NCBI GenBank assembly: GCA_903874275.1
Contig: CAIQRS010000084.1
Location: forward strand, 1-64,000
Direction: 5' to 3'
Source of the DNA: an uncultured Anaeromyxobacter sp.
GTDB taxonomy: Bacteria > Myxococcota > Myxococcia > Myxococcales > Anaeromyxobacteraceae
Length of the DNA stretch: 64,000 nucleotides
The translations under genes and the position numbers were made by a program. Shown here in pieces: positions 32,510 to 37,269 of this stretch (its first letter is position 1; each line of letters opens with the position of its first letter). The notes beneath the pieces were generated by a model. That model saw nothing but the letters and a program-made list of their open reading frames with translations. It was not told the origin of the DNA and did no database searches.

Positions 32510-33042
32510 TGGCCTGGGTCCGGCTCGGCACGGTGGTCCGGGCCGTCGGCCTCGACGGCAAGGTCGGGGTGGCTGGAACCGAGGGTGCGCTCCCGCGGAT
32601 GAGCACCGTGGCGCTCCGCAGGGCGGGCCAGGCGGAGACCGAGCGCAAGGTCCTCTCCGCCGGACCGCAAGGGCGGATCTGGTGGGCGCGCCTCGAGGGC
32701 GTGGAGGACCGGACGGGCGCCGAGGCGCTGCGGGGCTGCGAGGTGTGGGGGCGGCGGGAGGAGATGGGCGACGCCGGCGAGGGGCGCCATTTCTGGGCCG
32801 ACCTCGAGGGGATGCCGGTGGTCGAGGCCAGCGGGGTCGAGCTGGGACGGGTGGTGGAGCTCTACGTGACCGGGGGCGTGGACGTGCTGGTGGTCCGCGG
32901 TCCCGGGGGAGAACGGCTGGTGCCGCTCGCTCCCTGGGTCACGGTGGATCGGGAGCAGGGCCGGGTGGTGGTGGACGCGCCTCCCGGGCTGCTCGAGCTG
33001 GACGAAGAGGAGGAACGCGGGACGCAGAGGAGACCGACGTGA
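32509..33042 (+). CDS. rimM: 16S rRNA processing protein RimM
   Basis: 30S maturation factor that binds S19; 177 residues. The N-terminal beta barrel opens with [17 protein letters not shown] and the PRC domain includes [14 protein letters not shown], the [17 protein letters not shown] stretch and [20 protein letters not shown]. The start overlaps the khpA stop; the stop overlaps the trmD GTG (GTGA). Tail acidic then basic. Confidence 0.92.
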
Positions 33043-33779
33043 AGCGGCTGGAGGTGGAGATCCTGACCCTCTTCCCTCGGATGTGCGAGGGGTACCTCTC
33101 CGAGAGCATCCTCGGGAAGGCGCGGGAGGCGGGGCTCCTCGACGCGCGGGTGACCGACATCCGCGAGTACGCCTCCGGGAAGCACCGGGTCACCGACGAC
33201 GCTCCCTACGGTGGGGGCGGCGGGATGGTGATGAAGCCGGAGCCGCTGACCGCCGCCATCGAGGCCGCCCGTGAGCGGCTGCCCGGGGCCCGGGTGCTGC
33301 TCATGAGCCCACGGGGGGAGCCGCTCTCGCAGCGGCTGGTGGAGGAGCTGGCGGAGCACGGACGTCTCGTCATCGCCTGCGGGCGCTACGAGGGAGTGGA
33401 CGAACGCGTGAGGACGGCAGTCGACATGGAGGTCTCCTGCGGGGACTTCGTGCTCACCGGCGGTGAGCTGGCGGCGCTCTGCGTCGTGGACGCGGCCGCC
33501 CGCCTGGTCCCTGGGGTTCTCGGAAACGAGACCTCGGCCGGCCGGGAGAGCTTCGCCGGAGCCCCCCTCCTGGAGTACCCTCACTACACGCGGCCGCCGG
33601 CCTTCCGCGGAGTGGAGGTCCCCGAGGTCCTCCTTTCCGGGGACCACCGGCGCGTCGAGAGGTGGCGCCGGCGCGAGTCGCTCCGGGTCACGCGGGAACG
33701 GCGCCCGGATCTGTTCGCGCGCCTGCAACTGGACGAAGACGACCGCCGGCTCATCGAGGCCGGCGACGACGAGCTGTAA
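33039..33779 (+). CDS. trmD: tRNA (guanine-N1-)-methyltransferase
   Basis: Methylates G37 of tRNAs using SAM; SPOUT knotted fold; 246 residues. [20 protein letters not shown] at the start, [30 protein letters not shown] and [20 protein letters not shown] are family signatures. The GTG at 33039 overlaps the rimM stop and follows GAGGAGACC. Confidence 0.97.
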
Positions 33780-33792
33780 GGGAGATGAGACG

Positions 33793-34167
33793 ATGCTGCG
33801 CAAGGAAATCGCCGCCGTAGAGGCCAAGTATCTCCGCAAGGACGTTCCCGTCTTCCGTGGTGGGGACACCGTGCGGGTGCACACGAAGATCAAGGAAGGC
33901 GACAAGGAGCGCATCCAGCTGTACGAGGGCGTGGTCATCGCCTCGTCCGGCGGCGGCCCGCGCGCCATGTTCACCGTCCGCAAGGTGAGCTACGGCGTGG
34001 GCGTCGAGCGCATCTTCCCGGTCCACAGCCCCCGCATCGACCGCATCGAGGTGGTGGGGCGTGGCGCCGTCCGCCGGTCGCGCCTGTACTACCTGCGCAA
34101 CCTCCAGGGGAAGGCCGCCCGCGTGCAGCAGGAAGAGGGACCGGGCGCGTCCAGCCGGACCGCCTAG
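33793..34167 (+). CDS. rplS: 50S ribosomal protein L19
   Basis: Inter-subunit bridge protein, 124 residues. [35 protein letters not shown] and [20 protein letters not shown] are conserved. ATG 33793 is inside a longer frame and preceded by GGGAGATGAG. Last ribosomal gene of the block. Confidence 0.97.
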
Positions 34168-34179
34168 CCCTTTCCGGCG

Positions 34180-34193
34180 CTCCGTACGCGGAG
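34180..34193 (+). terminator. Small hairpin after rplS
   Basis: CTCCG (34180-34184), loop TACG, CGGAG (34189-34193), in the 43-base gap to the next gene; no T run. TACAGT at 34194-34199 right behind it could be a -10 box for the next gene, with a weak TTTCCG 17 bases upstream. Confidence 0.3.
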
Positions 34194-34210
34194 TACAGTT
34201 CCCGGCCGAC

Positions 34211-36052
34211 GTGCTCCTGCTCGAGATCGCAGCCCAGGGTGTCCGCGGATTCGCGCCCGAGCGGGGGCGGATCCTCTTTCGCGCGGGCTACAACGTGGTC
34301 GCCGGTGACGGCGCGGCGCTCCGCCGTGTCGTCGCGGCGCTGTTCCACACCGATCTTCCCCCCGATCCGATCCTGCGCGGGGACGGCGCCGGCGCACCCG
34401 GGGCGGTCCGGGCCGGCCTGACGCTCGCCGGCGACGACGGGGTCACCTGGCGCGTGGTGCGGGACCTCGGCGGCGGGTGCCAGCTCCAGCGCTACGACGC
34501 CGAGAAGAGGACCTTCGAGTCGGTGCTCCAGGACCCGGTCCGCATCGCCGAGGTGCTCCGCGCCGCCGGTGCGCCGTCCCCGGAGCGCTACGCGGCGGTC
34601 CTCTCCGTGGCTTCCGCCGACTTTCCGTCCCGGCAGGCTCCCGGCGGGATGGCCGGCGTGGTGTCGGTCGTGGCGCCGCGCCGGTCCGTCGCCGATCCGG
34701 AGGGGTCCCGCAAGAAGCTCGAGGCCGCGCGGGCCGAGCTCGAGCACGCACGGTCGGCGGACCAGCTCCAGTCGCAGATGGACACCGCTCAGTCCCGCCT
34801 CTTCAAGCTGGAGGAGATGCTCAAGTCCGGGGAGCAGGTGAAGGAGCGGGTTCGCGCCGCGCAGGCCGGCATGGCCGCCTTCGCCGCCGGGGAGACGGCC
34901 CTGGCCGCCCTGGGCGACCCCGCGGCCCGGCTCGCCGCCTGCACCAGGGCCACGGCGCGGCGCGACGAGGCGCTCAAGAAGGTGGCGGCGGAGCGGGACG
35001 CGCAGGAGGGAAGCGCGGGACCGGGATCCCGTTCCCTGATCCAGCAGCCGGGCTTCGTCGCCGGCCTGGGCGTCGGCGCGGTGGCGCTGCTCGCCGGACT
35101 CTTCACGGATCTGAGGGCGCTGGCGCTCGCAGCCATCCCCGCCACGGGGTGGTCCGCGTTCGAGGGGCTCCGCTGGATCGGGCGGGCCGAGTCGGCGGAA
35201 CTGGCGGGGCGCCGCTCCCGATGGCTCTCCGAGCGGGAGAAGAAGGCCCTCGAGCTCTGGGAGCGGGAGACCGCCGCGGTCCGGGGCGTGATGGCGGCGG
35301 CTGGAGTGACGACGCTCGCGGAGCTCGAGGACCTGCTCGGCCGGGCGCGGGAGGCGCGGGCCAACCTCGACGAGGCCGAGGCTGGGTTCACCGCCTGGCA
35401 GGCGCGCGCCGAGACCTCCGACGCGGAGGCGGAGCGGGTGGCGGTCCAGCAGGAGATCGGGGTCCTGGAGGGGCAGCTCACCAGCGGGGTGGGCGGCTTC
35501 GTGCGGGACATCCACTCCCTGGAGCAGGAGATCGCCCGGCTGGAGCGGGAGGTGGAGGCCGGTCCCTTCGAACCGCTCGGCGAGGCGACGGTGGTGGAGT
35601 CGAAGCCGACGCCGGCCCCACGAGGGGAGGCCTTGCGGACGCTCATGGAGCGGGCCTCCGCCGACCTGGGGCTCACCCCGGGGGCGGCGCTCCGGGCCCT
35701 TCAGCCGCGGGTCCTCCAGCTCCTGCCCGTGCTCTCCGGGCAGCGCCTCACCAACTTCTTCGTGGACGAGCGGGGGAACCTCCAGGTCCAGGCCGGCGGG
35801 AAGCTCGTCCCCACGGGGACGCTGGGGGTACCCGAGCGGGACGTCTGCTTCGCCGTGCTCAAGGTGGCGTTCCTCGAGCAGGGGCTCGCCGCCGGCAAGT
35901 CGGTGGCGGTTCTCGACGAGGCGTTCGGCGTCCTGCCGGAGGGCTCGCGGAAGACCCTGGCCCGCGTCCTCAAGCAGCTCGCCAAGGGGCGCCAGATCAT
36001 CCACGGAACGGCCGATGTCCTCTTCCGGGAGGCGGCGGACCACGCCGGGTAG
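34211..36052 (+). CDS. Coiled-coil, divergent SMC/RecN-like ATPase-type protein with two hydrophobic segments
   Basis: Not a family I can name. The 613 residues open with LEIAAQGVRGFAPERGRILF and GYNVVAGDGAALRRVV, which align by eye with the start of RecF/SMC/YhaN head domains, but the Walker A Gly-Lys-Ser/Thr is missing (GDGAALRR). Residues about 160-240 and 350-460 are Glu/Arg/Ala-rich predicted coiled coil. A hydrophobic pair lies at about 277-305 (GFVAGLGVGAVALLAGLFTD and ALALAAIPATGW). The end has KSVAVLDEAFGVLPEGSRKT, a Walker B/D-loop-like stretch, and ARVLKQLAKGRQIIHGTAD. The GTG start is chosen because this N-terminal pattern starts there. Between rplS and yraN, same strand. Confidence 0.6.
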   Translation: MLLLEIAAQGVRGFAPERGRILFRAGYNVVAGDGAALRRVVAALFHTDLPPDPILRGDGAGAPGAVRAGLTLAGDDGVTWRVVRDLGGGCQLQRYDAEKRTFESVLQDPVRIAEVLRAAGAPSPERYAAVLSVASADFPSRQAPGGMAGVVSVVAPRRSVADPEGSRKKLEAARAELEHARSADQLQSQMDTAQSRLFKLEEMLKSGEQVKERVRAAQAGMAAFAAGETALAALGDPAARLAACTRATARRDEALKKVAAERDAQEGSAGPGSRSLIQQPGFVAGLGVGAVALLAGLFTDLRALALAAIPATGWSAFEGLRWIGRAESAELAGRRSRWLSEREKKALELWERETAAVRGVMAAAGVTTLAELEDLLGRAREARANLDEAEAGFTAWQARAETSDAEAERVAVQQEIGVLEGQLTSGVGGFVRDIHSLEQEIARLEREVEAGPFEPLGEATVVESKPTPAPRGEALRTLMERASADLGLTPGAALRALQPRVLQLLPVLSGQRLTNFFVDERGNLQVQAGGKLVPTGTLGVPERDVCFAVLKVAFLEQGLAAGKSVAVLDEAFGVLPEGSRKTLARVLKQLAKGRQIIHGTADVLFREAADHAG

Positions 36053-36055
36053 GGA

Positions 36056-36433
36056 GTGCCCACCACCCGGGACAAGGGGCGCGACGCGGAGCGGCTGGCC
36101 GAGGCCTGGCTGGTGCACCGCGGGTACGTCATCCTGGACCGCAACCACGCCACCCGGAGCGGCGAGGTGGACCTGGTCTGCCGCGACGGGCGCGTGCTCT
36201 GCTTCGTGGAGGTGCGGAGCCGGGCCGGCCGGGGGCACGGCGCACCGGAGGAGACCGTGGACCGCCGCAAGGCGCTGCGGGTGGTCGCGGCCGCCACCGA
36301 CTGGGCCAGGCGCCACGGCTCGATGGACGACGACATCCGCTTCGACGTGCTGGCGGTGAACGGGAGCGGCGACGCCCCGGGGTTCGAGCTCTTCCAGGGC
36401 GCCTTCGACTCCTCGGGAGGGTCGCCGGGATGA
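36056..36433 (+). CDS. YraN family (UPF0102) endonuclease-like protein
   Basis: Small protein of 125 residues with the restriction-endonuclease-like fold: RDAERLAEAWLVHRGY, then GEVDLVCRDGRVLCFVEVRS, which holds the Glu/Asp ... Glu-x-Arg (usually Glu-x-Lys) core. Its cellular role is unclear in all bacteria. GTG 36056 comes three bases after the previous stop with TAGGGAG overlapping it. The stop overlaps the rsmI ATG (ATGA). Confidence 0.88.
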   Translation: MPTTRDKGRDAERLAEAWLVHRGYVILDRNHATRSGEVDLVCRDGRVLCFVEVRSRAGRGHGAPEETVDRRKALRVVAAATDWARRHGSMDDDIRFDVLAVNGSGDAPGFELFQGAFDSSGGSPG

Positions 36434-37269
36434 GCGCGGGCACCCTCTACGTGGTGGCGACCCCCATCGGCAACCTGGGCGACCTCTCCCCCCGTGCGGC
36501 GGAGGTGCTGCGGACGGTGGGCGTGGTGGTCGCCGAGGACACCCGCCGGACCCGGACGCTGCTCGCCCATGCCGACGCCCACCCGGCCGACCTGCTCTCC
36601 CTGCCGGCCTTCGACGAGGCGGGTCGGGTGGAGCGGATCGTGGCGCGGCTCGCCGCCGGCGCTTCCGTGGCGCTGGTGACCGACGCCGGAACCCCCGGGG
36701 TCTCCGACCCGGGATGCCGGCTCGTCGAGGCCGCCTGGGAGGCGGGGGCGAAGGTGGTCCCGGTGCCCGGGCCGTCGGCGGCGCTGGCGGCGCTCTCCGC
36801 CTCGGGGCTCTCCGCGGATCGGTTCCTCTTCGCCGGCTTCCTGCCGCGCAAGGGCGGGGCGCGGGCCGAGGCGCTGCGCTGGCTCGCAGGCGTGCCGGCC
36901 ACGCTGGTGCTGTTCGAGGCCGGGAACCGGGCGGCGGACACCCTCGCCGACCTGGAGGCCGCCTTCGGCGACCGCCCGGCGGCGCTGGCCAGGGAGCTGA
37001 CCAAGCTGCACGAGGAGATCGCGCGCGGCCGGCTCTCGGAACTCCGCTCCCGGTTCACCGGAGCGCTCCGTGGCGAGGTGACGCTCGTGGTGGCCGGTGT
37101 CGCCGAGGCGCCGGAGGAAGCTCCCGTCGAGCCGCCCGAGGAGGAGATCCGGCGGCGGCTCGCGGCCGGGGAGGCGCCCACCGAGGTGGCGCGGGCCATC
37201 GCGAAGGGACGGGACCTGTCGCGGAGCGAGGCCTACGCGCTGGTGGAGCGGGTGCGGGGTCGTCGCTAG
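36430..37269 (+). CDS. rsmI: 16S rRNA (cytidine1402-2'-O)-methyltransferase
   Basis: Tetrapyrrole-methylase-fold enzyme modifying C1402 in the decoding centre. The 279 residues have [50 protein letters not shown] and [22 protein letters not shown] replaces the usual YE(S/A)PHR. The C-terminal region is Glu-rich then ends in a helix. Its TAG overlaps the stop of the opposing regulator gene in a shared CTAG. Confidence 0.94.

Follow-up and report, generated by a model that had tools for sequence, protein, structure and literature searches.

A Rad50-like protein with a dismantled ATP site and a putative membrane hairpin, encoded behind rplS in Myxococcota

Related systems and the locus

Rad50 and SMC proteins are treated as ATP-driven machines. 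Formation of their ATP-sandwich dimer requires residues of the P-loop, the signature motif, the D-loop and the switch His, and the proteins also dimerise via the apex of the arm, which in Rad50 is much longer than in the protein described here. The AAA_27 family (PF13514), which we take to be YhaN-type, shares with this protein a split ABC head at both ends, a coiled coil, a central two-helix hydrophobic hairpin and a Walker B motif of the type xDDxF. The complete AAA_27 proteins that we scanned are ~1010-1090 aa long and carry intact GPNEAGKS, LSRGTRE, NFD and TCH motifs, whereas the present protein has 613 aa and no Pfam match, its ATP site is broken and it is encoded at a different locus. 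With Rad50/SbcC it has in common the head fold and a sequence-profile match in both head halves, and it differs by the absence of P-loop, signature and zinc hook, by a much shorter arm and by its apex hairpin. SMC, RecN and RecF belong to the same ABC-head superfamily; the SMC hinge domain is absent from the model of our protein. Archaea-specific SMC-related proteins (ASRPs) matched below cut-off in 18 of 31 members, in the window member via the coiled coil; according to statements in PMC9389158 they carry Walker A, Walker B and mostly a zinc hook, whereas a CxxC zinc hook occurs mid-protein in none of the 77 full-length members of our family (0/77), and ASRP membership was rejected on both counts.

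The window, a stretch of 64,000 nucleotides from an uncultured Anaeromyxobacter sp., contains on its + strand a 613 aa open reading frame that runs from a GTG at 34211, a start position common to the homologues, to a stop ending at 36052. As the initial annotation had described, the gene lies directly behind rplS and before yraN-rsmI on the same strand: 43 nt separate the rplS stop from the gene start and 3 nt the gene end from the GTG of yraN, within the order trmD-rplS-gene-yraN-rsmI. The features are as follows, with the evidence for each.

33039..33779, + strand: trmD, context (ORF, blastp neighbour test)
33793..34167, + strand: rplS, ribosomal protein L19, context (ORF, neighbour tests; E. 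coli trmD-rplS order compared)
34211..36052, + strand: whole gene, Rad50-like hairpin-bearing pseudo-ATPase (ORF and translation, conserved start, dN/dS)
34211..34630, + strand: N-terminal half of the ABC head, aa 1-140 (AF2 model, VIA/Foldseek to Rad50)
34286..34336, + strand: P-loop remnant GYNVVAGDGAALRRVVA, aa 26-42, no Lys, loop shortened (alignment with P-loop-bearing orthologues)
34697..35008, + strand: ascending coiled-coil helices, aa 163-266 (AF2 secondary structure)
35048..35173, + strand: apex hydrophobic hairpin, aa 280-321, probably membrane-inserted, at the Rad50 zinc-hook position (hydropathy, conserved G/LLDIPxFG block, AF2 helices)
35174..35560, + strand: descending coiled-coil helices, aa 322-450 (AF2 secondary structure)
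35630..36049, + strand: C-terminal half of the ABC head, aa 474-613 (AF2 model, profile match to Rad50 and AAA_27)
35819..35842, + strand: degenerate signature motif TLGVPERD instead of LSxGxRE, aa 537-544 (column counts)
35903..35920, + strand: Walker-B-like strand VAVLDE, aa 565-570 (sequence, column counts)
36056..36433, + strand: yraN, predicted PD-(D/E)XK nuclease, context (ORF, neighbour test, literature)
36430..37269, + strand: rsmI, context (ORF, neighbour test)

The window protein had no Pfam match even at E 10 and only sub-cut-off matches in NCBIfam; the Pfam cut-off for AAA_27 was reached neither by the window member, which was assigned to no family, nor by the single match among 31 members, at E 0.015. 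A literature search, thin on subscription journals and without preprints, returned nothing on this gene, and the present description draws attention to a gene that carries neither a Pfam nor an NCBIfam label. Between 33700 and 36500, scans detected no promoter-like sites and a single weak terminator-like site, positioned inside the gene. A small perfect inverted repeat lies at 34179-34194, between rplS and the gene start. An RNA element in this intergenic stretch was considered and rejected, as the fold z-score is 0.80 and shuffles fold at least as well.

A Rad50/SMC-type head with a dismantled ATP site

Computation shows that both protein ends together form one ABC head of the Rad50/SMC type, and with a head built from the termini and joined by a coiled coil the protein has the fold that defines the Rad50/SMC superfamily. 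The AlphaFold2 model of the window protein (pLDDT 87.8, pTM 0.51) gave Rad50 and SMC-family heads as top Foldseek matches, with E 1.5e-10 to Rad50. VIA-align superposed the model on Rad50 3qku with Z 23.4 over 267 residues at 3.0 Å, and SMC heads scored lower (Z 20.6 for 5h68 and below). The model of a P-loop-bearing orthologue (L045, pLDDT 82.0) aligned to Rad50 4ncj with Z 27.5 over 278 residues at 2.6 Å. By sequence alone, the family profile matches Rad50 in the PDB at E 3.1e-12, and a profile of six distant members matches Rad50 via both head halves at E 3e-9. The initial annotation had read the ends as the two halves of an SMC-type ATP head and had named a lack of structural similarity to ABC ATPase heads as the result that would speak against this reading; the similarity turned out to be strong. 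Head charge is near neutral in most of the 25 members computed and gives no sign of DNA binding.

Profile-profile comparison (hhalign) matched the C-terminal head half of the family to AAA_27 with a probability of 98 and E 2.1e-13. The family profile, too, picks out AAA_27 loci; at E <= 1 it gives no match to the SMC-like ORFs that were fetched from the window's genome and its relatives (L240-L254). The NCBIfam recN and PRK10869 profiles matched weakly, with best E values of 0.058 and 0.033 in 2 and 3 of 31 members, respectively. RecN or SMC is unlikely to be the nearest kin and was rejected as such on the basis of these weak RecN matches and the missing family-profile match to SMC-like ORFs. 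For the earlier label "RecN-like", "Rad50- or AAA_27 (YhaN)-like" is the better description. Judged from the profiles, the nearest relatives found are the hairpin-bearing AAA_27 (YhaN-type) ATPases, and we conclude that the family is an offshoot near AAA_27/Rad50 with a short arm. Membership in a defence system was rejected, as the window protein has no PADLOC match. The P-loop-bearing L045 gave weak PADLOC matches, the best to LmuB (E 8.1e-8), located in the coiled coil and taken as coil similarity.

The N-terminus of the window protein reads GYNVVAGDGAALRR and contains no GxxxxGK[ST], which bears out the absence of the P-loop Lys noticed at the outset. At this position a distant P-loop-bearing orthologue reads GYSVFVGGPGSGKTS, and the strand-to-helix loop of the window protein is ~4 residues shorter than in P-loop-bearing orthologues (YSVFVGGPGSGKTSI). 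Since the loop is shortened as well as Lys-free, more than one mutated Lys is involved. Among 141 distinct N-termini read, which represent a large part but not all of the matching loci after merging of identical N-termini and prior exclusion of nine fragments without an N-terminus, the P-loop is missing in 132, and [AG]xxxxGK[ST] is kept in nine. All same-genus and same-family members read are without P-loop. The nine carriers, distant but syntenic orthologues, correspond to all nine sampled genomes of one class (f13). Whether every member has lost the P-loop, as had been asked initially, therefore receives a divided answer: close homologues have, these nine orthologues have not. An intact P-loop in close homologues, named at the outset as the sign of a local mutation, was thus not encountered.

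A local mutation, a pseudogene or a mis-assembly would have nothing to its credit beyond the missing Lys, and we consider it exceedingly improbable. The P-loop is absent in all close kin read, the match is free of stops, and dN/dS between the window gene and two same-genus copies amounts to 0.296 and 0.263; local mutation and pseudogene are refuted by these data. Across 11 pairs dN/dS ranges from 0.037 to 0.336. The gene is under purifying selection and functional, and together with the recurrence of a hydrophobic segment among the homologues this puts the observation beyond chance.

Motif columns were counted in 77 full-length members and in eight AAA_27 controls. Signature Ser and signature Gly are each found in 0/9 P-loop members vs 8/8 controls, the D-loop Asp in 1/9 vs 8/8, and the switch His in 0/9 P-loop members, 17 of 68 P-loop-less members and 8/8 controls. 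The first Walker-B position is D in all eight controls and all nine P-loop members; among the 68 P-loop-less members it is D in 31 and E in 31. The window protein itself has neither a Walker A nor a signature motif (LSxGx) and retains the acidic pair of Walker B, its C-terminal half carrying the Walker-B-like VAVLDEAF. Because signature Ser/Gly and switch His are absent even in the P-loop class, the requirements of an ATP-sandwich dimer have been lost there too. These counts show that the composite ATP site is dismantled: signature Ser/Gly, D-loop and switch His have been lost or are no longer conserved, and outside one class the P-loop is gone. Signature loss is family-wide, and the P-loop survives in a single class.

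It might be argued that nucleotide is still used, in one class via P-loop and Walker-B Asp, and that other members may bind a nucleotide or ligand as a switch via the remodelled loop. The nine f13-class members, with their [AG]xxxxGK[ST] and a Walker-B Asp in 9/9, would fit this possibility, but even these members have neither signature motif nor switch His, and the window protein is entirely without a phosphate-binding loop. The possibility is therefore rather remote, although the sequences of P-loop-less members are compatible with nucleotide binding at a remodelled site.

In a tree with AAA_27 heads as root, two P-loop-less members of f10 form the sister group of the P-loop clade (support 94), and the P-loop-less L030 branches at the base, outside the P-loop clade and f10. 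If the P-loop is ancestral, this topology suggests two or more losses; deep support is modest (80-94), and 14 rows were excluded, namely four long branches (L151, L115, L041, L112) and ten near-copies or incomplete rows.

Coiled-coil arm, apex hairpin and a possible membrane platform

Between the head halves, computation shows a short antiparallel coiled coil that ends in a hydrophobic hairpin at the position of the Rad50 zinc hook. The coiled coil and hydrophobic pair that had been noticed mid-protein are hence present, the pair at ~aa 280-321. Apex helices of the AF2 model span residues 280-298 and 302 onward; hydropathy peaks at 1.99 for residues 281-299 (KD19), and the second hydrophobic stretch is weaker than the first. 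Hydrophobic segments were called with a 19-residue Kyte-Doolittle window and a threshold of 1.6. On this scale, at least one segment exceeds the threshold in the hairpin region of 74 of the 77 full-length homologues, and the hairpin block LDIPxFG occurs in 31/77. Membrane insertion of the hairpin is likely, as predicted from hydropathy; full insertion is not certain, because only 26/77 show two such segments close together.

A central hydrophobic hairpin, which in AAA_27 lies outside the Pfam definition, is thus present here too, with a weak second segment in the window protein. Among AAA_27 proteins of the same order, 17 of 18 scanned have a strong hydrophobic helix pair mid-coil, and the gene of the remaining one is cut by a contig end (L221-L239; 20 fetched, two missed by the search pattern). 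The strong pair also occurs in the AAA_27 loci L130 and L132 and is absent in L131. With their two strong mid-coil hydrophobic helices, full-length AAA_27 ATPases of this order look membrane-anchored as well.

Alternatively, the apex could be a hydrophobic dimerisation tip instead of a membrane anchor, making the protein a soluble, ATP-independent SMC-like bridge for two DNA or protein clients. The weakly hydrophobic second hairpin helix and the conserved LDIPxFG block point in this direction, as does apex dimerisation of Rad50 and SMC proteins. We judge such a bridge unlikely, given the near-constant segment of KD >=1.6 in the hairpin region and the two strong transmembrane-like helices that the nearest relatives possess at this place.

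The explanation we favour, with a probability of roughly 0.58, is that of a membrane-anchored, ATP-independent relative of Rad50 and AAA_27 (YhaN-type) proteins acting as a scaffold. The hairpin would sit in the inner membrane, with arm and head in the cytoplasm. Without ATP cycling, the head could serve as a fixed dimerising or client-binding platform, and this platform might keep DNA, or a partner that processes nucleic acids, at the membrane; the nature of the client is a guess. The pseudo-ATPase scaffold with a possible membrane hairpin proposed in the initial annotation gains support from the head match, the lost ATP motifs and the recurring hydrophobic segment. A more far-reaching version, which we offer tentatively and with the odds against it, would see a phylum-wide membrane tether derived from a Rad50/YhaN-type ATPase whose ATP site was lost stepwise, the signature first and the P-loop later and more than once, so that a DNA-repair motor became a fixed inner-membrane platform positioning DNA or the YraN/RNase HII nucleases. 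If stepwise loss holds, the P-loop-bearing class would represent a surviving intermediate stage on the way from motor to scaffold.

The fold as such is known; what is new is the combination of hairpin apex, dismantled ATP site, phylum-wide synteny and one class with a relic P-loop. A family, mostly with one match per genome, that kept the head, exchanged the hook for a probable membrane hairpin and, in most of a phylum, gave up using ATP would demonstrate that such a head can be a static module. Moreover, survival of syntenic orthologues with and without P-loop makes the order of loss and the former role of ATP directly testable.

Distribution and the rplS neighbourhood

With the window protein as query, homologues turned up in 39 of 41 relatives; across the phylum Myxococcota, 160 of 193 genomes had a match. 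The gene is present in 9/9 genomes of the P-loop-bearing class, that of G077, and with an orthologue as query it was recovered in 18 of 39 distant or earlier-missed genomes. A contig scan with narrow patterns yielded six loci, all from Myxococcota, Myxococcales or "Deltaproteobacteria" MAGs. Members cluster largely by family in the gene tree, with P-loop members forming one group (support 100), and for 135 of the 141 distinct N-termini, from several classes of the phylum, rplS is the gene immediately upstream, in the same orientation; two of the six exceptions have <730 bases upstream on their contig. These computations show that the gene is inherited vertically at one locus. One match (G078:C21:102311-103738; L042, L102) contains a TGA with one query and none with another.

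Genomes without the gene are informative about its position. An rplS locus was obtained from 13 of 14 and read. In 12 of these 13 stretches the first gene behind rplS, in the same orientation, is rnhB or yraN; the remaining one (L269) has rnhB and yraN on the opposite strand. The slot that the gene occupies is stable, and it functions in genomes that lack the gene. A service to the ribosome might nevertheless be envisaged, in which the protein, co-expressed with rplS and trmD, tethers ribosomes, polysomes or some maturation step to the membrane and its head binds RNA or protein. The upstream rplS in several classes would agree with this, as would the scan, in which the interval from rplS to the gene start showed neither a promoter-like nor a terminator-like site. 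However, rplS works without the gene in the 12 gene-less loci, three reduced f4 genomes among them, and vertical inheritance accounts for the common position; since gene-less genomes keep rplS beside rnhB or yraN, a ribosomal partnership is unnecessary to explain where the gene lies. Ribosomal function as the cause of the synteny was rejected on this ground, and we hold ribosome service in general to be improbable. Of the proposed tie to ribosomal genes, the positional part is retained; a connection with ribosome function did not emerge.

Turning back to the membrane scaffold, the neighbours identified were trmD, rplS, yraN, rsmI and, in f13, rnhB, none of them of the Mre11/SbcD type. YraN is at best a first candidate partner, a weak lead that derives from its position as next gene in most loci read of the window's order and from its description as a helicase-associated nuclease in natural transformation (a statement in PMC12455585 and the title of a preprint cited there); passages of PMC1189080 assign the YraN family to the PD-(D/E)XK nucleases. 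Against YraN or DNA as client speak the near-neutral heads and the loci in which yraN is present without the gene: most gene-less loci retain yraN, so YraN does not need this protein.

It also speaks against YraN that none of the six f13-class loci listed has yraN directly behind the gene in the same orientation. In two of them, L061 (3984-4646) and L063 (4280-4957), rnhB lies directly behind the gene, and in L063 yraN follows rnhB on the opposite strand, rnhB in both loci and yraN in L063 having been named by eye from sequence. This order hints at an older arrangement rplS-gene-rnhB-yraN-rsmI. Three small genomes (2.1-2.7 Mb; G068, G123, G146) of genus g20 in family f4 are without the gene; their loci (L271, L274, L275) show rplS followed by yraN and rsmI and were read as natural deletions of the gene. 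In a genome of 1.3 Mb, the rplS match (L263, G065:C5:6988-7320) contains one in-frame TAG, which may be the true gene end or a recoded codon.
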